Of a stretch of 53,378 bases of DNA, positions 2,142 through 34,145 are shown piece by piece. Source of the DNA: Zoogloea sp. GTDB taxonomy: Bacteria > Pseudomonadota > Gammaproteobacteria > Burkholderiales > Rhodocyclaceae. Made by a program: the position numbers and the translations under genes. Every line of letters starts with the position of its first letter. Position 1 is the first letter of the stretch. Location: assembly GCF_017302315.1 (NCBI RefSeq), contig NZ_JAFLDT010000019.1:1-53378 (forward strand). Direction: 5' to 3'. The notes beneath the pieces are model-generated. The model saw only the letters and a list, made by a program, of their open reading frames with translations, did not search any database and was not told where the DNA came from.

Positions 2142-2303
2142 GTGGGGGCGACTTCAGTCGCCCGCGGACTTTGATCAAGGGTGTGCCGGTGATCAATGCG
2201 TGGATGGGCGACTGAAGTCGCCCCTACAAGTCGCCCCTATGAGTCGACTCTGTGGAGAGGCCGCGTCGATCGTCAGACGACGCGTCAAACGGAGGAAATC
2301 AGG
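2142..2303. repeat. REP-type repeat pair with conserved tail, copy A
   Basis: Two inverted REP units face each other: one at 2142-2163 (GTGG followed by GGGCGACTTCAGTCGCCC) and its reverse complement at 2206-2227, which read on the minus strand is preceded by GTAG. Each unit can fold by itself, and the pair forms a larger hairpin. The spacer carries TGATCAAGGGTGTGCC. A tail at 2272-2303 (core GACGCGTCAAACGGAGGAAA) is shared with copy C near 25.46 kb, which lies in the opposite orientation. A GTAG tetranucleotide before an imperfect palindrome is the hallmark of REP sequences mobilised by RAYT (TnpA-REP) transposases. The gene-free stretch 2029-2359 holds only this element. Confidence 0.75.
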
Positions 2304-23542: not shown

Positions 23543-23598
23543 GTAGAGGCGACTTCAGTCGCCTATCGGGCGTCGATCACAGACATGCCCCTGATCGG
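23543..23598. repeat. REP-type repeat, partial copy B
   Basis: GTAG followed by AGGCGACTTCAGTCGCC, then a spacer (CGTCGATCACAGACATGCCC) also found in copy C near 25.53 kb. The second REP unit of the pair is missing: similarity stops after CTGATCGG, exactly where the NtrC-type site of amtB begins. The gene-free stretch 23440-23754 therefore holds the norB terminator, this half element and the amtB control region. Confidence 0.65.
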
Positions 23599-25457: not shown

Positions 25458-25594
25458 CCTAATTTCCTCCGTTTGACGCGTCATCTGACGGTCGATATGG
25501 TCTCTCCTGCAGGGGCGACTTCAGTCGCCCACCCACGCGTCGATCACAGGCATGCCCTTGATCGACGTCCGCGGGCGACTGAAGTCGCCCCCAC
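25458..25594. repeat. REP-type repeat pair with conserved tail, copy C
   Basis: The same arrangement as copy A but in the opposite orientation: the tail at 25458-25489 (reverse complement of GACGCGTCAAACGGAGGAAA, with one change elsewhere in the tail), then REP units at 25509-25530 (GCAG before GGGCGACTTCAGTCGCCC) and 25573-25593. The spacer keeps CGTCGATCACAGGCATGCCC. Similarity between A and C over about 140 bp makes this one repeat family rather than chance palindromes. No RAYT transposase gene is in the window. Confidence 0.75.
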
Positions 25595-25644: not shown

Positions 25645-27066
25645 TCAGGGCGGTAGCACGTAGCCCAGTTCGTCGGCGGCGAGGGCTTCGATCCAGCCCA
25701 GTTGCCGCTCCAGCACCGCGACCGTGGCTTCGGACGCGTCGCCCCGGCGTGCGTCCAGGCGCCGGCGCAGCTCGTCGTCCGGTGCGGAGCAGGCCAGGAT
25801 GCCAAAGCCCGCACCGCGAGTGAGGGCGATGTTCCGGAACGTGTCCCGCTCGGCCCGCTTCAGGAAGGCCGCATCGATGATTACCGACCAGCCGGCATCG
25901 AGCATGTCTGCGGCTGCTTCGGCCAGATGGGCGAAGGTGAGCCGGGTGGCCTCCGCCGTATAGATTCCGCCGTTTTGCGTATCGGGCCGGCTGTGGGCCA
26001 GGGCCGGCAGGCCGTGGAGGCGCTTGCGTTCCACGTCGGAGCGCAGGCGCAGGGTCGCCGCAGCCGGGTCGGCCATCAGCAGGGCGGTGCTGCGCACCGT
26101 CTTGCCCGAGCCGGACAGGCCATGGGTGATGGTCAGGCGCGGCGCCGGCGGCGTGGTCAGGCGTTCGGCCAGGTCCAGGTAGCTCGCCACCCCCTCCGGT
26201 TTGCCCGACAGAGCGGCCACCTTGGCCCGCACCATGGCCTTATACACCGCGTAGAAGCGCAGCACCGGTATGGCACCCACATCCCCCGATTCGCCGAGCC
26301 AGGCGCTCAGCAGCCAGGCGGCCAGGTCGGGGCGGCGGTGGTCGAGGAGATCCATCCAGGTGAAGGCCAGCTCGGAGGCCACATCGATCCAGCGCAGGGC
26401 GGGGTTGAACTCGATGCAGTCGAAGGGCACGACCTGCCCGTCGAGGAGCACCAGGTTGCCCAGGTGCAGGTCGCCGTGGCATTCGCGGATGAAGCCTGCG
26501 GCCTTGCGGGCGGCAAACACCCCGTGCCGACGGTCGAACTCGCTCTGTGTCCAGCCTTGCAGGCGTGCCAGACGGCTGGCCTCGGCCGGCTGCAGGGTGA
26601 GCAGCGTGGTGAAATTGTCGAGGGCCGGCGCCAGGATTTCGGTGGGCTCCCCCCAGGGGCTGCGTGCATCGGCCACGGCGGCGCCCCGGTGAAAGGCGTG
26701 GAGGGTCCGGGCCAGGCTGTCGAGGGCGTCGGGACCGAGCGCGCCCCGGTCACAGACGTGATCCAGGCGCTGACTCTCGGCAAAACGCCGCATCTTCACG
26801 GCGCACTCGCCGCTGTCGTCCACCTCCTCCAGGCCCAGGTAGAGCCCCGGGGCCAGGCGCCGGTTGAGGCGCAGCTCTTCATGGCAGCAGAAGCGGCGCT
26901 GCTCGGCCGTGCCGTAGTCGAGGAAGGGCAGGCTCAGGGGTTTCTTGAGTTTCCAGACGAAGCCGTCAGTCAGGAGGACCCAGGAAATGTGGGTCTCGAT
27001 GAGTTCGGCGCCGAGGCGGGCCTGGAAGCGCGCCAGCCAGTCGGGCAGGGGGGCAGATGCGCTCAT
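25645..27066 (-). CDS. Fusion of APH-type phosphotransferase and P-loop kinase domains
   Basis: 473 residues. The N-terminal half is an aminoglycoside-phosphotransferase/choline-kinase-like domain with the catalytic loop ECHGDLHLGNLVL (near 195) and FDCIEFNPALRWIDVASELA as the metal-binding segment. The C-terminal third has a Walker A GLSGSGKT (near 320) and SVIIDAAFLKRAERD, as in zeta-toxin/gluconate-kinase-like proteins. This pairing is a known, widespread but uncharacterised family of bifunctional kinases. The ATG at 27066 overlaps the stop of the CdsA-like gene (ATGA), so it is the last gene of the lipid cluster. A role in phosphorylating the alcohol headgroup is a guess from context. No antibiotic resistance should be assumed. 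Confidence 0.82.
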   Translation of the reverse strand: MSASAPLPDWLARFQARLGAELIETHISWVLLTDGFVWKLKKPLSLPFLDYGTAEQRRFCCHEELRLNRRLAPGLYLGLEEVDDSGECAVKMRRFAESQRLDHVCDRGALGPDALDSLARTLHAFHRGAAVADARSPWGEPTEILAPALDNFTTLLTLQPAEASRLARLQGWTQSEFDRRHGVFAARKAAGFIRECHGDLHLGNLVLLDGQVVPFDCIEFNPALRWIDVASELAFTWMDLLDHRRPDLAAWLLSAWLGESGDVGAIPVLRFYAVYKAMVRAKVAALSGKPEGVASYLDLAERLTTPPAPRLTITHGLSGSGKTVRSTALLMADPAAATLRLRSDVERKRLHGLPALAHSRPDTQNGGIYTAEATRLTFAHLAEAAADMLDAGWSVIIDAAFLKRAERDTFRNIALTRGAGFGILACSAPDDELRRRLDARRGDASEATVAVLERQLGWIEALAADELGYVLPP

Positions 27067-28007
27067 GCCACCCACCCGTAGCGGACGATGTGGAAGAAGA
27101 TGGGGGCGGAGAAGCTGATCGAATCCACCCGGTCGAGCATGCCGCCGTGGCCTTCAATCATGGCGCCCCAGTCCTTCACGCCCCGGTCGCGCTTGATGGC
27201 CGACAGCACGAAGCCGCCGAAGAAGCCCATCACGTTGATGACCAGGGCGATCAGCCCGGCCTCCAGGGGCGTGAAGGGGGTGATCCACCACAGGGCGGCG
27301 CCGACGGCGGTTGAGGTGAGCACGCCACCCACCAGGCCTTCCACGGTCTTCGACGGGGAGATGGCCGGCGACACCTTGCGCTTGCCGATGAGCTTGCCCC
27401 ACACGTACTGGAAGACGTCGCTGGATTGTACGGTGAGGATCAGGAAGACGATCAGCAACATGTTGCGTCCGGCGTAGCCGGCGATCTCCAGGGTGAGCAG
27501 GGCCGGTACGTGGGACAGGCAATACACGCAGATCATCAGCCCCCACTGGACCTTGGCCGCCCGTTCCAGGAAGCGCGTGGTGTCGGCCCCCAGGGAGGAG
27601 GAGATGGGCAGCAGCAGGAAGGCGTAGACCGGGATCAGGATGGAGAACAGGCCGTACCAGTGGGTGGCGATGAGCCAGTACTGGGCGGGCAGGAAGACGA
27701 AGAAGCTCCACAGCAGGGCGCGGTGGTCGCCCAGCCGGGTGTGGGTGAGGGAGATGAACTCCCGCAGACACTGGAAGGAGATGAAGGCGAACAGGGCGAT
27801 CACGCCCCACGGGCCGATCCAGATGGCCGCGCCGATCAGCGCGATCATGGCCCACCAGGCCTTGATGCGGGCGTTGAGGTTGTCGATGACACCGTGGGGC
27901 TCACCCCGGGCGACCCGGTACTTGAGACCGGCGCCGATCAGGCTGAACACGGCCAGCAGGCCGAAGATGCCGCCGAAGACGGCGATGAGGTCGTGGGATG
28001 CGTTCAT
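27063..28007 (-). CDS. ynbB: CdsA-family phosphatidate cytidylyltransferase, YnbB-like
   Basis: 314 residues, about eight membrane helices. The CTP-transferase signature is complete at the C-terminus: SPSKTVEGLVGG, then KRDRGVKDWGAMIEGHGGML and DRVDS. CdsA-type enzymes make CDP-diacylglycerol from phosphatidate and CTP, the activated lipid used by CDP-alcohol phosphatidyltransferases. The essential housekeeping cdsA normally sits with uppS and dxr; this copy is in a cluster with a YnbA-like transferase, so it is the E. coli YnbB counterpart and likely serves a special lipid. The start at ATG 28007 lies four bases after the plsC-like stop. Confidence 0.85.
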   Translation of the reverse strand: MNASHDLIAVFGGIFGLLAVFSLIGAGLKYRVARGEPHGVIDNLNARIKAWWAMIALIGAAIWIGPWGVIALFAFISFQCLREFISLTHTRLGDHRALLWSFFVFLPAQYWLIATHWYGLFSILIPVYAFLLLPISSSLGADTTRFLERAAKVQWGLMICVYCLSHVPALLTLEIAGYAGRNMLLIVFLILTVQSSDVFQYVWGKLIGKRKVSPAISPSKTVEGLVGGVLTSTAVGAALWWITPFTPLEAGLIALVINVMGFFGGFVLSAIKRDRGVKDWGAMIEGHGGMLDRVDSISFSAPIFFHIVRYGWVA

Positions 28008-28011
28008 GGGC

Positions 28012-28635
28012 TCAGTCGGCGGGTGGGGCCAGGTCAAGGAGCGCGGTGCGGGCGCGGGCAAGGAAGGCATCGCGGCTCTCCCCGTCGATGGGGGCCAGGG
28101 GCGGGCCGAAGCTCAGGGTGCACAACAGCGGCACCGGGATCAGGCTGCCCTTGGGCATCACCCGGCCCAGGTTCTCGATCCATACGGGGATCAGCTCGGC
28201 CTCGGGGTGGGCCTTGGCCAGGTGGTGCAGGCCGCTCTTGAAGGGCAGCAGGCCATCGCCCATGTTGCGGGTGCCCTCGGGAAAGAGGATCAGGGATTCA
28301 CCGGCGGACAGGGCTTCGCCCATCTGCTCTACCGGGTTGGGGCCGTTGCGCCCGGGCCGGCGGTCGATGCACACGCCGCGGAACACCCGGTTGATCAGGA
28401 AACGGCGCAGGGGCGTGGTCAGCCAGTAGTCGGCGCCCGCCACCGGCCGGGTGCGGCGGCGCAGGGGCGGCGGCAGGGACGCCCAGATCAGCACGAAATC
28501 CCCGTGGCTGCGGTGGTTGGCGAAGTACACCCGCGGGCGGGCGTCGGGCTCGCTGCCCAGCCACAGGGCGCGGACACCGGTGAGGGCGCGGGCAAAGCCG
28601 CACAGGGCGGAGGCGAGGAGGCGGTCGACAAACAT
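28012..28635 (-). CDS. Lysophospholipid acyltransferase, PlsC family
   Basis: 207 residues from ATG 28635 (MFVDRLLASALCGFARAL). The acyltransferase block I NHRSHGDF (H-x4-D near 40) and block III LFPEGTRN (near 117) are intact; block IV is seen around LIPVWIENLGR. PlsC enzymes add the second acyl chain to lysophosphatidate. It is not part of the E. coli ynbABCD set. Here it lies between the small membrane protein gene and the CdsA-like gene, supplying the phosphatidate that CdsA-type enzymes use. It is probably attached to the inner membrane. Confidence 0.85.
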   Translation of the reverse strand: MFVDRLLASALCGFARALTGVRALWLGSEPDARPRVYFANHRSHGDFVLIWASLPPPLRRRTRPVAGADYWLTTPLRRFLINRVFRGVCIDRRPGRNGPNPVEQMGEALSAGESLILFPEGTRNMGDGLLPFKSGLHHLAKAHPEAELIPVWIENLGRVMPKGSLIPVPLLCTLSFGPPLAPIDGESRDAFLARARTALLDLAPPAD

Positions 28636-28649
28636 CGGGTTTCCCGGAT

Positions 28650-29102
28650 TCAGCCCGCGGCCATGGCCGCGAGCAGGGTCAGGCCCTGGAGGGCCAGGGC
28701 AAGGGCCTGGCGGCGCAGCAGGCCCAGGGCGCCGCGCACCCGCTCGGCCAGGGGCCGAGGAGTGCGGGCGGGCTGGCCGAAAGCGCTGCCCAGGGCCTGA
28801 TCGAAGGCCTGCAGGTCGGCATCCACATCGACCGCAGCGGGGGCGCTCCAGCACTGGGCCCAGTGAGTGAACAGCGCTGCATCCAGGCCGCTGCGCACGG
28901 CATGGTAGGCCTGTATGGCGCCGGCCACCAGGCTCAGGGCGAGGCAGGCGATGCGGGCCGGGCCGCCGGGGGCCAGCAGCAGGGTGGCGAGGGCTGGCAG
29001 CAGCAGGGCCAGACTGAGCAGATGCAGGCTGCGCCCCTGGGCCAGGGCGGCGGCGGCAAGGGCGGCGCTGGCTGCCGCGTCGCGGGTGTCGTCAGGCGCC
29101 AC
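28650..29102 (-). CDS. Small membrane protein within the lipid cluster
   Basis: About 150 residues from a GTG at 29102, set by GGAG seven bases upstream, inside the end of the preceding phosphatase gene. Hydrophobic segments are LLSLALLLPALATLLLA, IACLALSLVAGAIQA and the C-terminal ALALALQGLTLLAAMAAG, so two or three membrane helices are likely. A soluble stretch between them (VDVDADLQAFDQALGSAFGQ) carries several Asp. No family is recognised. Its tight placement between the PAP2-phosphatase and PlsC genes suggests an accessory subunit of the same pathway. Confidence 0.65.
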   Translation of the reverse strand: MAPDDTRDAAASAALAAAALAQGRSLHLLSLALLLPALATLLLAPGGPARIACLALSLVAGAIQAYHAVRSGLDAALFTHWAQCWSAPAAVDVDADLQAFDQALGSAFGQPARTPRPLAERVRGALGLLRRQALALALQGLTLLAAMAAG

Positions 29103-30429
29103 CGGTGAGCTCCGCTGGCGGGCTGACCCGGGCCAGGGCCTGGCGGTGCTGCGGGCCCAGCACGACCCGGGGGCGGGTCTGCTGCAGGATCGCCAGCGCC
29201 GCATCCACCGAGCTTGCCCGGCCCGTGGCCAGCAACCAGGCGGCCACCGCGCTGGCGCTGCGCGAGTAGCCCAGGGCGCAGCACACCAGCACCGGGCCGT
29301 GCTGGCGCAGGCGCTCGATGGCGGCGGCGGCCTTTTCCAGCCGGGCGCTGTCGGGAGGGACCAGATCGAGCCAGGGCAATTGCATGTAGGCCCAGTTGCC
29401 CTTTGGCGCCGGGAGCTCGGCGGTGAGATCGAGCAGAGCCCGAAAGCCGTCGGCCCGCATGGCCCCGCTGTCGGGTAGACGGCCCAGCCACACGCCGTCG
29501 GCGATCAGCCCAGGGGCCGGGGAATTACGGGTCCACAGGCGCGAGTTGAGCCAGGCGCCCAGGGTGTAGGGGGCCAGCAGCAGGGCGGCACCCAGGGCAT
29601 GGCGGCCCGCGTGTTTCTGGAAGCCAGCCGGGCCGAGGAGGGCGTAGTTGAGGGCCACCAGGGCCAGGGCGATGCCCAGCCACACGAATACCAGCCCGCC
29701 GCCCCCGAGCAGGACCCCCAGGCCAGCCGCTGTCAGGGCGCCGCACAGGTAGGTGCCGGCCAGCCGGCGCCGTTCGGGGGACTGCGTCCAGCGGGCGGCG
29801 GAGAAGGGCGTGGGGCCTTCGTCCGGCCACAGCCACAGGCACAGCAGGCCCACCAGGGCACCGCTGGGAAGGTCGATGAAATGGTGCTGGTAGGTGGTGA
29901 GCACCGACACGGCGATCAGGGCGGCCCAGGCATCCACCAGCCAGCGCAGGGGGCCGCGGGTGGCGGTGGCAAAACGCACCCAGATGATGATGAGCAGGCT
30001 GATGTGCAGCGAGGGCGCCTGGTTGTAGGGCAGGTCGAAGCCAGCCAGGGCGTCGAAGAGGGCGCCAAAGAGGCCGTCGGCGTCGGGCCGGGCGAAGCTG
30101 AAGCGTAGCGGGAAGGCCAGGAAGCAGGCCACCGATACGAGCTGGGCCGTGAGCAGGCGCAGGGCGTGGCGATCCACCTGCAGGGCCGTGCGGCAGAGCA
30201 GAAAGGACAGGCCGTAGAACAGGTCGATGGACCAGTAGGGCAGGATGGTCCAGGGCAGGAAGGGGATGTGCTGCTCCCACTCGTACACCAGGGCATCGCT
30301 CACCTGCCAGCGGGCCGCCATGGAATTGGCGAAGCCGTAGCTGAGGAAGAAGAAGGGCCCCAGGAAGAGCAGCCAGGCGACGCCCCGTTGCCAAGGAATG
30401 GCGGTGGTGGGGCCGGCCGGGGTGTTCAT
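29092..30429 (-). CDS. ynbD: PAP2 membrane domain fused to dual-specificity phosphatase, YnbD-like
   Basis: 445 residues. The N-terminal two thirds have about eight membrane helices with PAP2-type residues (NQAPSLHISLLIIIWVRF and TYQHHFIDLPSGALVGLL: SxH and the HHxxxD-like motif). The C-terminal 150 residues are a dual-specificity phosphatase with the P-loop VLVCCALGYSRSASAVAAWL (C-x5-R). The protein matches E. coli YnbD in domain order. It should remove phosphate from a lipid or lipid headgroup at the membrane, such as a phosphatidyl-alcohol phosphate; the substrate is unknown. The ATG overlaps the stop of the upstream ynbC-like gene (ATGA). Confidence 0.85.
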   Translation of the reverse strand: MNTPAGPTTAIPWQRGVAWLLFLGPFFFLSYGFANSMAARWQVSDALVYEWEQHIPFLPWTILPYWSIDLFYGLSFLLCRTALQVDRHALRLLTAQLVSVACFLAFPLRFSFARPDADGLFGALFDALAGFDLPYNQAPSLHISLLIIIWVRFATATRGPLRWLVDAWAALIAVSVLTTYQHHFIDLPSGALVGLLCLWLWPDEGPTPFSAARWTQSPERRRLAGTYLCGALTAAGLGVLLGGGGLVFVWLGIALALVALNYALLGPAGFQKHAGRHALGAALLLAPYTLGAWLNSRLWTRNSPAPGLIADGVWLGRLPDSGAMRADGFRALLDLTAELPAPKGNWAYMQLPWLDLVPPDSARLEKAAAAIERLRQHGPVLVCCALGYSRSASAVAAWLLATGRASSVDAALAILQQTRPRVVLGPQHRQALARVSPPAELTGGA

Positions 30430-32183
30430 GGGGCGCGTCGCCGGGCCAGGGACACGGTGAAGATGCCCCACTCGTCGATGCGCTGTTCGAGCTTGTCGAA
30501 GCCGGCCGCATCCACCAGCTGGTCCATCTCGGCCTGGCTGCGCCGGCGCATCACCCAGGCCTCGCCGCCCCGGTGGCTGGTGAGGGCGCGGGCGATGAGT
30601 TCCAGTTGGGGGTGCCAGGGCTGGCCGGTGTACAGCAGCAGGCCGCCGGGTTCGATGGCGTCGGCCATGCCGGCCAGGGAGCGGCTCACCATGGCGTTGT
30701 CGGGAAAGAGCTCGTAGAGGCCGGAGACGATGCCGATGGTGGGGCGGGGGAACACGCCGGCCACCGAGGCCCGGTCGAAGGCATCGCCCTTCTCGAAGCG
30801 GGCGATGGCCTCGAGGCCCTTCTCGCGGATCAGGGCAGCGCCGTCGCGCACGTTGATGTCGCTGAAGTCGCGCAGCAGGATGGACTCGGGGCGGCGGGGG
30901 GCTTCGCTCAGGGCTTCGAGCACGTAGCGGCCGTGGCCGGCGGCGATGTCCAGCACCCGTAGGGGGCGGCCCTCGGTGTGCAGGCGGCCGAGGGCCAGGC
31001 GCAGGAGCTCCTCCAGGTGGCGCTTGCGCTGGCGGATGCCGCGCCAGCCGATGGCGTCGAGGTAGTTGCGGTCGATGGCCCGGCCCAGGGGGCCGCTGCC
31101 GGTGGCGGTGTTGCGATAGACGTAGTCGAGGGTGCTGCCCGAGTCGAAGCCGGTGCGGTGGCCCAGGGCAATGCCCGCCGACAGGCAGCCGCCGAGCTTC
31201 ATGCTGGCGCGGTAGGCGGCCCAGTAAAGCCCCCGTGGGCTGAGTGAGGAAAGGGGGCGGGCCAGGGCCTCGGATTCATCATGGGTGGCGCCGTGGCGGT
31301 CGGCATCGAGCAGGCTCACCGGTGCGGCGGGGTGGTCGAACTGGCGCAGGATGAAGTCGCGGGCCTTGTCGGTGGCGAGCTTGCGGTCCTGCTCGCCGAG
31401 GGTGTCGTGGTAGAAGCCGTCGAGGACGTGCTTCTCCTTGACTGCCGAGCCCAGCCCGTCGAAGAAGCGGTGCTGGGGGCCGTGATGGACCACCCAGTCG
31501 GCACCGGAGATGAGTAGCTGGGTGGGCAGGGTGATGGCCTGGGCGTCGGCGACGACCCGCTCGGCGGCTTCATACAGCCCGAGCAGGATGTTGACCGAGA
31601 TGGCCCGGGCGATCAGCGGATCCTTGTTGTAGCTGCGCTGACGGGCCGGATCGTGGGTCAGGAACTTGGCCTTGACGTAGCTGTTTACGAAGAAGTTGCC
31701 GCGCAGTTTTTCGAGCAGGGCCAGGCCCGGGCGGGCAAAGGGCACGTAGAGTTTGACCTGGAAGGCCGGCGAGGCGAGCACCAGGCCGCGTATCCGCGGC
31801 GCGTAGTCGTGGGCCCAGGTGGCCACCAGTACCGCGCCGACGCTCTGGGCCAGCACGGCCAGGTCGGCGTGGGCGATGCCGTGGTGGTCACGGATGTGAT
31901 CGACGAAGGTCTGTACGTCGCGTACCGAGGTGCCAAAGCTCGGCGAATGCCCGCGGGCGCCCGGCGAGTGGCCATGGCCGCGGGCGTCCCAGGCGAAGAA
32001 GTCGAAACCGGGCAGGTCCAGCTCGTCGGCCAGGTGGGCGATGCGGCCGGAGTGCTCGTGGCCCCGGTGGAACATCACCACGGCGCCCCGGCGGGGGGCT
32101 GTTGCGGGCCAGTGGCGGTAGAACAACTGCACTCCGTCGTGGGTTTCGAAATGATGTTCGGAGACCGGGCGGGGGGTGTTCAT
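30426..32183 (-). CDS. ynbC: Fusion of alpha/beta hydrolase and SAM methyltransferase, YnbC-like
   Basis: 585 residues. Residues about 10-290 form a monoglyceride-lipase-like hydrolase: MFHRGHEHSGRIAHLADEL, a nucleophile elbow AQSVGAVLV (Gly before x-Ser replaced by Ala), the acid strand LISGADWVVHHG and a late His in GFYHDTLGE. Residues about 320-585 are a methyltransferase with motif I VLDIAAGHGRYVLEAL and IGIVSGLYELFPDN. The two-domain order is that of E. coli YnbC. It could deacylate and methylate a lipid, but the reactions are not known. It overlaps the ynbD-like gene by four bases and follows the ynbA-like gene by eight bases. Confidence 0.85.
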   Translation of the reverse strand: MNTPRPVSEHHFETHDGVQLFYRHWPATAPRRGAVVMFHRGHEHSGRIAHLADELDLPGFDFFAWDARGHGHSPGARGHSPSFGTSVRDVQTFVDHIRDHHGIAHADLAVLAQSVGAVLVATWAHDYAPRIRGLVLASPAFQVKLYVPFARPGLALLEKLRGNFFVNSYVKAKFLTHDPARQRSYNKDPLIARAISVNILLGLYEAAERVVADAQAITLPTQLLISGADWVVHHGPQHRFFDGLGSAVKEKHVLDGFYHDTLGEQDRKLATDKARDFILRQFDHPAAPVSLLDADRHGATHDESEALARPLSSLSPRGLYWAAYRASMKLGGCLSAGIALGHRTGFDSGSTLDYVYRNTATGSGPLGRAIDRNYLDAIGWRGIRQRKRHLEELLRLALGRLHTEGRPLRVLDIAAGHGRYVLEALSEAPRRPESILLRDFSDINVRDGAALIREKGLEAIARFEKGDAFDRASVAGVFPRPTIGIVSGLYELFPDNAMVSRSLAGMADAIEPGGLLLYTGQPWHPQLELIARALTSHRGGEAWVMRRRSQAEMDQLVDAAGFDKLEQRIDEWGIFTVSLARRRAP

Positions 32184-32191
32184 CGCTGACC

Positions 32192-32806
32192 TCAGGGGTT
32201 CGTGCGGGCCTGGCGGACGCCGCTACGGATGCGGTTGAAGGTGTTGAGCAGGATGGCCAGGGCCGCCACCGGCATGATCCAGAAGGCCGCCGCGGGCAGG
32301 CTGCCGGCCAGGCCCAGCCACAGGCCGAGGGCACCGAACAGGAAGGCCCGGTCGCTCTTGCCCATGGGGCCGTCGTACTGGCGGGGGGCGCCGACCATGG
32401 GGCCGAGTGCACCGGCCATCTCGGAGACGGCCGACAGGAAGATCACCGCCCCGACGCTACCCCAGCCGAAGGGGGCGACGGCCACGAAGGGCAGGTAGAG
32501 GGCGGCATCGGAGAGCACGTCGGACAGCTCGTTGAAGTAGGCTCCGAGGGGTGACTGCTGGCCGAACTCCCGGGCCAGCATGCCATCCACCGCGTTGAAG
32601 GCCATGCGCAGAAACATCCACAGGGGCAGCAGCAGGAAGGCGCCGCTGTTGCCGGCCTGGAGGAACAGCCCCAGGCCGAGGGCCAGGGAGATCAGCATGG
32701 CCGCCAGGGTGACCTGGTTGGCGGTGACGCCGGCTGCCGCCAGCCGGCCGACGATGGGGCGGAGGAGTGCCTGAAAGCGGGGTTTAAGCTGATAGATGCT
32801 GATCAT
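32192..32806 (-). CDS. ynbA: CDP-alcohol phosphatidyltransferase, YnbA-like
   Basis: 204 residues from ATG 32806 (MISIYQLKPRFQALLRPIVG); six membrane helices. The CDP-alcohol phosphotransferase motif reads DGMLAREF, then GAYFNELSD. In the canonical D-G-x2-A-R-x8-G-x3-D-x3-D the third Asp is Asn here. The start and the SDRAFLFGALGLW region resemble E. coli YnbA. It should join a CDP-activated lipid to a small alcohol and is the head gene of the cluster. The identity of the alcohol is open: glycerol phosphate, inositol phosphate and others are used by relatives. Confidence 0.85.
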   Translation of the reverse strand: MISIYQLKPRFQALLRPIVGRLAAAGVTANQVTLAAMLISLALGLGLFLQAGNSGAFLLLPLWMFLRMAFNAVDGMLAREFGQQSPLGAYFNELSDVLSDAALYLPFVAVAPFGWGSVGAVIFLSAVSEMAGALGPMVGAPRQYDGPMGKSDRAFLFGALGLWLGLAGSLPAAAFWIMPVAALAILLNTFNRIRSGVRQARTNP

Positions 32807-32861: not shown

Positions 32862-34145
32862 TCAGCCCTTCGTCGCTCCGCTCAGATGCCGGCCGATCTC
32901 GCCGAAGCCCGGGTTGTTGGGGAGCAGGGTGCCGTTGACCTCGATGATGGGTGTGCCGATGGCCCCGTTCCCCAGGCCCGCCCGCTGCAGGCGGTCGTTG
33001 AGGCGGGCCTCCGCGGCGGTGTCCTGATCGATGATGTACTCGCTGTAGAGCACACCCATGCTGTCGAACTGGCGCCGTTTTTCCGCACAGAAGCCGCAGG
33101 TGCTCAGGGAATACATGACGATGCGGTCGCGACCGGCGTCGTAGCGCGCGGCAAACGCCGCCTTCCCGGCTTCGGTTGTTTGGTTCAGGCCGGGCAGGGC
33201 CTCCAGGGCGGGCAATTGGCTGCCGACCACGCCGAAGGCGAAGAATGCAATCGCCCCGGTTATGGCCATGCCCCCCAGCAGCCCGATGGCCGACACCGGT
33301 CGGGCGGGCTCGCCCCAGGCATTACCGCCCTTCTGGCCGGGCACCACGAGCAGGAGCAGGGCCGCCACGGCGCCGACATAGGGGATCCAGGTGACCAGCG
33401 TCCACCACCCGCTTAGGCCCATATCATGGAGACGGAAGACGGTGCCGCGGGTGCCGTAAATCGCCAGTACAAGCAGGCCGAGGCCACCGATCAGCAGGCC
33501 GGGTGCGCCCAGGGTGAGGGCGACGACGGCCAGGACGAAGGTGCCGCCGAGAGCCAGCAGGCCGCTGAGCAGGAAGTTGCGCCGGCCGAAGCGACCGCGA
33601 AAGCCCAGTCCGAGGATGCCGCTTTCGGCGAGGGGGGGCGCCAGGTCGGCCCTGCCCTGGGGCCGGGCGGCCATCCCCTTCTCGGGGTCTGGCTGGCGTC
33701 GCTGGGCCTGCGAGGCGGTATAGCGCGGCATGTCGATGGCGCAGGCGCGGCACAGGGTGCGGCGGGGTTGCTGCTCACCGCAGGCCGGGCAGGTCATCAA
33801 CTCGATGGGCGCCACCTCCGGCGCTGGCGCCGGGGACGCTGCCATGGGGGCTTGGGGGAGCGGGCGGGGCGATGGGAGGGGCGGCTCGATGGTGGCGCGC
33901 AGCCCGATGGCGGCCAGCCGCTGTTGATAACGCAGGGCATCGTCTGCCCCCAGGCCCTTGCGCAGGCTCACCCGCTGGCCGGAGAACACGCTGTCCATGG
34001 TTTCCGCCGTGCATTTGAGCAGGGCCTGGAGCTGGCGCCGACAGGTGATGACATCGTGACCGGGAAGAACTTCTCCGAAGAACAGGATGGAATGGACTTG
34101 GGGCACGGCCGGCTCCGGTTTTAGGGCGCTTGATTCTATGCCCAT
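32862..34145 (-). CDS. Zinc-ribbon / DUF805 membrane / glutaredoxin-like fusion protein
   Basis: 427 residues in four parts. Residues about 15-90 form a small domain common in front of DUF805 proteins (FFGEVLPGHDVITCRRQL, VFSGQRVSLRKGLGADDALR). A zinc ribbon follows, CPACGEQQPRRTLCRAC (near 118-134). About 185-290 is DUF805, with membrane helices and the conserved FRLHDMGLSGWWTL. The last 100 residues are glutaredoxin-like: IVMYSLSTCGFCAEKRRQF with a CGFC active site, and IGTPIIEVNGTLLP, the cis-Pro loop. A membrane-attached thiol reductase is likely; the side of the membrane is not clear. It starts 102 bp from the divergent small gene at 34248. Confidence 0.8.
   Translation of the reverse strand: MGIESSALKPEPAVPQVHSILFFGEVLPGHDVITCRRQLQALLKCTAETMDSVFSGQRVSLRKGLGADDALRYQQRLAAIGLRATIEPPLPSPRPLPQAPMAASPAPAPEVAPIELMTCPACGEQQPRRTLCRACAIDMPRYTASQAQRRQPDPEKGMAARPQGRADLAPPLAESGILGLGFRGRFGRRNFLLSGLLALGGTFVLAVVALTLGAPGLLIGGLGLLVLAIYGTRGTVFRLHDMGLSGWWTLVTWIPYVGAVAALLLLVVPGQKGGNAWGEPARPVSAIGLLGGMAITGAIAFFAFGVVGSQLPALEALPGLNQTTEAGKAAFAARYDAGRDRIVMYSLSTCGFCAEKRRQFDSMGVLYSEYIIDQDTAAEARLNDRLQRAGLGNGAIGTPIIEVNGTLLPNNPGFGEIGRHLSGATKG

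Follow-up and report, generated by a model that had tools for sequence, protein, structure and literature searches.

A conserved six-gene ynb-type cluster in Zoogloea sp., its CDP-alcohol phosphotransferase relative with an Asn/Asn signature, and a possible dedicated phospholipid pathway

The stretch of DNA analysed here, referred to as the window, comprises all 53,378 nucleotides of contig NZ_JAFLDT010000019.1 (assembly GCF_017302315.1) of a Zoogloea sp. Its minus strand carries seven closely packed genes, four of which correspond to ynbABCD of Escherichia coli K-12. They are denoted A, C, D and B for the YnbA-, YnbC-, YnbD- and YnbB-like proteins, P for a PlsC-like protein, s for a small membrane protein and K for a kinase.

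32192 to 32806, minus strand: A, YnbA-like relative of the CDP-alcohol phosphotransferases, 204 amino acids (CDP-OH_P_transf match, signature motif, fold like that of phosphatidylinositol phosphate synthases).
30426 to 32183, minus strand: C, YnbC-like fusion of a monoglyceride-lipase-type hydrolase and a Methyltransf_20 methyltransferase, 585 amino acids (Pfam, fold).
29092 to 30429, minus strand: D, membrane protein of the YnbD type that combines a divergent PAP2 domain with a C-terminal dual-specificity phosphatase (DSP) domain, 445 amino acids (Pfam, PDB profiles).
28650 to 29102, minus strand: s, small membrane protein, 150 amino acids from GTG 29102 (no Pfam or NCBIfam family).
28012 to 28635, minus strand: P, PlsC-like acyltransferase, 207 amino acids (Acyltransferase, 68 bits; H-x4-D and FPEGTR).
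27063 to 28007, minus strand: B, YnbB-like paralogue of CDP-diacylglycerol (CDP-DAG) synthase, 314 amino acids (CTP_transf_1, 221.8 bits).
25645 to 27066, minus strand: K, APH-like/AAA_33 kinase fusion, 473 amino acids (AAA_33; judged to lie outside the system).

Read from 32806 to 25645 the order is A-C-D-s-P-B-K, and the cluster proper consists of the first six genes (27063-32806). A and C are separated by 8 bp, s and P by 14 bp and P and B by 4 bp; C overlaps D by 4 bp, B overlaps K by 4 bp, and D overlaps s by 11 bp, on the assumption that s starts at GTG 29102, a start of our choosing. A preliminary description of this DNA had listed seven minus-strand genes with 4-bp overlaps or gaps of at most 14 bp; all seven are present, and its gaps and other overlaps are accurate, but the overlap of D and s is 11 bp. 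The domains that it had assigned were recovered with Pfam and NCBIfam, PAP2 and APH below their curated cut-offs. It had also recognised the four E. coli ynbABCD products in a different gene order, in agreement with the comparison made here: all four Ynb types occur in the cluster, the proteins of the E. coli counterpart (b1408-b1411) being 39-58% identical to those of the window, and the order is A-B-C-D in E. coli as against A-C-D-s-P-B in the window.

CDP-alcohol phosphotransferases (CDP-APs) carry the signature D1xxD2G1xxAR...G2xxxD3xxxD4, whose eight residues have been described as 'absolutely conserved' (PMC4634129); D1 to D3 are metal ligands, and D4 probably acts as the base (PMC4634129; PMC6506517). 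A matches Pfam CDP-OH_P_transf with 34.2 bits (cut-off 22) and keeps six of the eight residues, D1 being replaced by Asn71 and D3 by Asn92. Hence, A is a CDP-AP relative by Pfam and, as described below, by fold, but not a canonical member by the eight-residue signature. Asn/Asn is found in 80 of 80 aligned A sequences, E. coli YnbA included (two incomplete sequences were omitted), and in 117 of the 119 A hits in the near and sampled loci described below, the other two being pieces of a split gene (L042). In the same 80 sequences D2, D4, AR and both Gly are invariant or nearly so, and so are K150, D152, R153 and R192 on the acceptor side. The Asn/Asn signature of YnbA, which the preliminary description had not seen (nor had it seen the phosphate-binding arginines discussed below), is a new observation; no report of such a CDP-AP signature was found in the literature searched, which covers few subscription journals.

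As a control, every CDP-OH_P_transf match (66) was collected from 21 genomes drawn evenly from the phylum. Sixty-one of them are Asp/Asp (58 by pattern, three by eye after a register slip), two are not readable (L280, L288) and three are Asn/Asn, namely A of the window and the members of L170 and L212. Profiles of B and P were searched in the same 21 whole genomes. With the B profile, five hits stood out as strong (E no higher than 9e-76); the next ones had E values of 4.5e-32 or more and are presumably ordinary CdsA. The P profile also yielded five strong hits (E no higher than 3e-35), and every one of them adjoins a strong B. Of the resulting five B-P pairs, three neighbour the Asn/Asn members, one (genome G486) neighbours a sister protein, A2, described below, and for the fifth (G107) no A was found within 8 kb. 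The remaining 63 family members all lie away from any strong B or P, in other genomes or contigs, or in G107 at a distance of at least about 200 kb. With equal flanks of 3 kb, of which six loci had less and within which B is out of reach in A-C-D-s-P-B loci (about 4 kb from A), the Asn/Asn loci show either C and D (window, L170) or B and P (L212), and the other 62 loci show none of B, C, D, P and K.

The conservation of the cluster was followed in two sets of loci. The near loci are the best 80 of 358 confirmed YnbC matches in genome contigs, with 70-97% YnbC identity, the closest match to the window (97%) being in a Zoogloea metagenome-assembled genome. Because this set was collected by way of YnbC and contains close relatives, genomes were also sampled by kinship; matches to PF12147, the methyltransferase family of YnbC, were present in 8/274 genomes of the class (five of them strong), 16/200 of the order and 27/398 of the phylum. 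All 80 near loci have A, C and D together; P is found in 75 of them and B in 74, and wherever P or B is missing the last detected gene ends no more than 340 bases from the contig end. In 42 sampled loci around the PF12147 matches C was detected in 41, A in 37, B and D in 35 each, P in 31 and K in none, counts that are lowered by the inclusion of two weak hits (L098, L099) and a divergent paralogue (L158). Flanks were covered for 21 of the 26 other C-positive phylum genomes. The 122 loci are partly non-independent, as L142 and L016, and L163 and L043, share their YnbC, and L053 and L066, and L069 and L071, share identical stretches.

The gene order varies greatly. The sampled loci show ACDsPB, ABPCD, CDsABP, ACDBP, ABCD, b'p'ACD and a'CD, with the exact ABCD order in one of the 42 (L097), and the near loci add PBACD and BPACD. 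In one locus (L081, 1968-4397; a metagenome-assembled genome labelled Acetobacteraceae) A and C are continuous as one open frame. The commonest unassigned neighbour is s, with clustered counterparts in 54 loci, never on the opposite strand; the other largest neighbour clusters either stay within related loci or are probably shadow frames. The genes are thus reshuffled yet stay together, which makes it likely that they are selected together, and the six are conserved together far beyond this Zoogloea genome, in many lineages of Proteobacteria. The preliminary description had held that genes scattered among relatives would speak against the suggested pathway and had proposed to compare co-occurrence and gene order; the six genes do travel together in varying order, and K does not. 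K is present in only 8/80 near loci, always next to B and always, among these near loci, under the label Zoogloea, and in 0/42 sampled loci. The cluster proper is hence the six genes without K, and the seven-gene unit first proposed has lost the kinase as a Zoogloea-only neighbour. Nor is the cluster 'enlarged' in a manner peculiar to the window organism, since clusters that include P (and s) are common.

Two further observations may be added. One genome (G278) has three YnbC-type genes (L153, L156, L158), one of which is 43% identical and stands without detected A, B, D or P. A fusion of a major facilitator superfamily (MFS) transporter and an acyltransferase lies upstream of A, on the same strand, in five loci, four of them independent (L016/L142, L025, L033, L035); it has 626 amino acids in L025, and we take it to resemble the lysophospholipid transporter-acyltransferases.

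When a YnbA profile was searched in the same number of phylum genomes (398), 37 matched strongly (E no higher than 2.7e-47), and all 27 C-positive genomes lie among these 37 (Fisher p 6e-34). In the ten genomes with a strong A and no C, neither C nor D was found within the 11 to 18 kb fetched around A; eight of them have A-B-P side by side, and another (L208) has a decayed A and part of B. As A-B-P occurs without C and D, the core is probably formed by the CDP-alcohol phosphotransferase, CdsA-like and PlsC-like proteins, with C and D (and s) as an optional finishing module that is present in many lineages. Directly downstream of A-B-P in L213 (11036-11719) lies a gene for a 227-amino-acid protein without a Pfam match, with counterparts in three further A-B-P genomes (L214, L215, L217).

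A sister type, A2 (L218-L227), was found among the weak matches of the YnbA profile; the member in G486 is L226 and stands outside the 66 control members. Like YnbA, the A2 proteins are divergent CDP-alcohol phosphotransferase relatives with Asn/Asn (10/10 by alignment) and with B and P as neighbours (9/10). They differ in being only 26-36% identical to the YnbA-type queries and in a changed AR of the signature, and no C or D was detected in the 7 kb fetched around them. Two weak matches of the same profile that are Asp/Asp (L228, L229) have neither B nor P nearby.

The AlphaFold2 model of A (mean predicted local distance difference test score, pLDDT, 91.9) has the CDP-AP fold, the best 28 Foldseek hits all being CDP-APs. 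It is closest to phosphatidylinositol phosphate (PIP) synthases (5d91, TMq 0.76), followed by AF2299 (up to 0.69), with at best 0.54 for phosphatidylglycerophosphate (PGP) synthase and 0.34 for phosphatidylserine synthase; PIP synthases are also the best PDB profile matches of A. In the Renibacterium salmoninarum enzyme R153 and R191 bind an anion in the crystal; every PIP synthase has these arginines, and the eukaryotic phosphatidylinositol synthases lack them (PMC4634129). Alanine at the counterparts of both in the mycobacterial enzyme severely lowered activity (PMC4634129). In a weak profile alignment to 5d91 (26.3 bits, E 4.8e-5) G-K-S-D-R153 of A stands opposite E-R-S-E-R, and R192 stands opposite the Arg 38 residues after the first, a pair equated with R153 and R191 of the paper from this spacing of 38. 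Hence, the two arginines for the acceptor phosphate appear to be kept in A. Judged by spacing in the same alignment, the mycobacterial S132 and K135, which are close to the phosphate and the ring, correspond to E129 and G132 of A.

A differs from the PIP synthases in other respects. It reaches 40.4 bits against NCBIfam PIPSynth (cut-off 170), and its best NCBIfam match, the archaetidylinositol phosphate synthase family NF040950, is far under the cut-off as well (57.1 bits against 180, residues 6-185). Inositol-phosphate synthase (PF01658) was not found in its own genome or in 32 of the 36 other A-positive genomes, and the E. coli control gave no match. In comparison with the PIP synthases of R. 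salmoninarum (5d91/5d92) and Mycobacterium tuberculosis (PgsA1), A shares the closest fold and, apparently, the phosphate arginines; it differs in Asn at D1 and D3, in Glu129 and Gly132 for Ser and Lys, and in the scarcity of inositol-phosphate synthase among its hosts. Inositol phosphate as a general acceptor is thus disfavoured, although uptake is possible. The apparently kept arginines, the differing inositol-side positions and the scarce synthase together point to a phosphorylated small molecule other than inositol phosphate as the acceptor of A.

The catalytic residues of P, B, C and D are intact. C matches Hydrolase_4 and Methyltransf_20 (512 bits), and S114, D229, H259 and the D412-G418 motif for S-adenosylmethionine are invariant or nearly so in 82 sequences; the best Foldseek hits of its model (mean pLDDT 79.4) are monoglyceride lipases. 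A role of C in anti-phage defence was discounted, with a single weak mad2 match (16.7 bits, E 6e-4). D scores 47.3 bits against DSPc (cut-off 33.5), and C384 and R390 of its Cys-x5-Arg are invariant in 18 sequences; the best 60 of its 108 PDB profile matches all fall within the phosphatase domain, and mitochondrial PTPMT1 is among the matches of that domain, though far from the best. PAP2 is less clear, with 22.5 bits against a cut-off of 27.2, the motif-1 Lys not conserved and PSLH and HHxxD conserved; it was matched at E 0.05 or better in 17/18 D members. PSLH and HHFxD are presumably similar to motifs of inositol-phosphorylceramide synthase, a link for which a literature search found nothing relevant. 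The scheme of PAP2 motifs and the names of the catalytic motifs of C, D, P and B are those that we take to be usual. P keeps H-x4-D and FPEGTR, and B has the C-terminal CdsA-type signature in place; against the housekeeping CdsA family PRK11624 it scores 88.4 bits (cut-off 385), over residues 148-306 only. No Pfam or NCBIfam match was found for s. K matches AAA_33, with APH at 20.9 bits (cut-off 23.2).

Outside these genes, five places in the window (2147-2222, 23548-23563, 25514-25589) carry the palindrome-like GGCGACTGAAGTCGCC, in this or the reverse-complement orientation, and four of them form two pairs 60 bp apart; there are 10 two-strand matches against 0.08 expected. It resembles an intergenic repeat of the repetitive extragenic palindromic type, and one pair lies directly downstream of K. 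At 32862-34145, 55 bp upstream of A, lies a gene whose protein was read as DUF805-like with a glutaredoxin-like end; it is 49-66% identical in L006-L008 and L011, where A is 83-96% identical, and 94% in L005, and appears to be fast-evolving. A scan for promoters and terminators gave two promoter-like sites and one terminator-like site and was uninformative.

Of 5426 complete E. coli genomes, 4242 contain at least 80% of the ynb operon, a count that includes copies broken by insertion sequences; the five best-ranked ynbABCD matches all list an insertion-sequence transposase under the match. The preliminary description held that no product had been assigned to them, and for ynbA, ynbC and ynbD none was found in the literature searched, which has the coverage stated above; for YnbB this does not hold, as the E. 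coli protein is reported to make CDP-DAG in vitro and to support MPIase but not bulk phospholipid (PMC6362211, PMC7018664). A ynbC transposon mutant showed diffuse LtrA and polyphosphate accumulation, with possible polar effects (PMC2435150), and YnbA has one row in the table of a cyclic di-GMP screen (PMC13031359). YnbD is the fourth putative PAP2 protein of E. coli, with no function ascribed, and failed to complement mutants in the phosphatases for PGP and undecaprenyl pyrophosphate (C55-PP) (PMC7413402). Its substrate is therefore probably neither of the two, and PGP is disfavoured as a substrate of D. The glucosaminyl-phosphatidylglycerol operon gpgSDF was also considered as a match and, in the source consulted, consists of different genes.

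With confidence and doubt in about equal measure, we propose that the six genes form a dedicated phospholipid pathway that runs alongside the housekeeping one and in which a phosphatidyl-(non-inositol) phosphate is dephosphorylated by D. P would make phosphatidate from its lyso-form, B would convert it to CDP-DAG, and A would transfer the phosphatidyl group onto a small phosphate-bearing acceptor other than inositol phosphate. The DSP domain of D would then remove the phosphate of the acceptor, a step that fits the presence of such a domain; the PAP2-like domain may work on the lipid from the opposite side of the membrane, and C may trim or methylate the product. For this scheme we infer the reaction order, which acceptor is used, the sidedness and all in vivo roles; the direct results behind it are the gene identities, their co-conservation, the catalytic residues of P, B, C and D, the Asn/Asn of A and the scarce inositol-phosphate synthase. 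The gene content agrees with the preliminary suggestion of enzymes able to form phosphatidate, CDP-DAG and a phosphatidyl-alcohol, the last being modified afterwards, and the idea of a lipid pathway is strengthened by the co-conservation and by the Asn/Asn feature. The enzyme families are known ones, and the pathway would be undescribed, with a distinct active site in A. Somewhat more tentatively, YnbA and A2 may constitute a clade with a rebuilt metal site and its own acyltransferase and CDP-DAG synthase that, in E. coli K-12 as in other Proteobacteria, produces a phosphatidyl-polyol (phosphate) lipid not yet described, again from a phosphorylated acceptor that is not inositol phosphate.

Several observations weigh against these proposals. 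Among the sampled loci, neither B nor P is near the A, C and D of L171 and L172; in L177 the set is limited to A and C and in L155 to C and D, and L153 lacks A. L216, among the ten C-less genomes, has A alone with a changed signature, the A2 of L220 has neither B nor P nearby, and the B-P pair of G107 (L289, G107:C1:814000-830000) has no recognisable A within 8 kb. The E. coli cluster is without P and s, and knockout of ynbB in E. coli left both phospholipids and MPIase free of defects (PMC7018664). The argument from the two arginines relies on an alignment that is weak by the score and E value given above, 4 of the 36 other A-positive genomes do have inositol-phosphate synthase, and the loss of two metal-ligand Asp could mean a changed or lost transferase activity.

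An unlikely alternative is that the cluster is a backup for MPIase, a membrane-protein-insertion glycolipid, B making CDP-DAG and GlcNAc-PP-DAG and the other genes supplying or adjusting the glycolipid. B is indeed of the YnbB type; over-production of YnbB raised MPIase, and under CdsA depletion YnbB restored MPIase and not phospholipid (PMC6362211, PMC7018664). However, the knockout mentioned above left MPIase unchanged, this explanation gives no role to A although A-B-P is the most compact form found, and the published MPIase work, in its accessible portions, neither involves YnbA, YnbC or YnbD nor connects their genes with MPIase. We regard as equally improbable a remodelling system without a dedicated product, in which C would de-acylate damaged or foreign phospholipids, P would re-acylate them and A, B and D would recycle head groups under stress. 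The predicted monoglyceride-lipase fold of C, the MFS-acyltransferase fusion upstream of A in its five loci, four of them independent, and the polyphosphate of the ynbC mutant, which its authors read as possible cell stress (PMC2435150), are in line with it. Yet none of the ten C-less strong-A genomes has C or D near A, and eight of them keep A-B-P, so that the synthetic part stands without the lipase.

Slightly less probable still is that A, having lost D1 and D3, is no longer a transferase and binds CDP-DAG or another lipid to regulate or scaffold B and P. The replacement of two metal ligands in 80/80 sequences would suit such a role, whereas D2, D4, AR, both Gly, K150, D152, R153 and R192 are kept as in a working site. 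A full seven-gene unit, in which K phosphorylates the alcohol then used by A, is very improbable. The 4-bp overlap with B in the window and the place beside B in eight Zoogloea loci speak for it, but K is rejected as a pathway member, being missing from 72/80 near and 42/42 sampled loci.

The lipids of E. coli K-12 have been studied for decades, yet for three of the four genes of its ynb operon the literature searched showed no product. If the proposed pathway is true, it predicts a phospholipid that is missing from the usual list, and it offers A, B and P as the minimal gene set and a class of acceptors to try. It would also mean that a CDP-alcohol phosphotransferase breaks a signature described as absolute.

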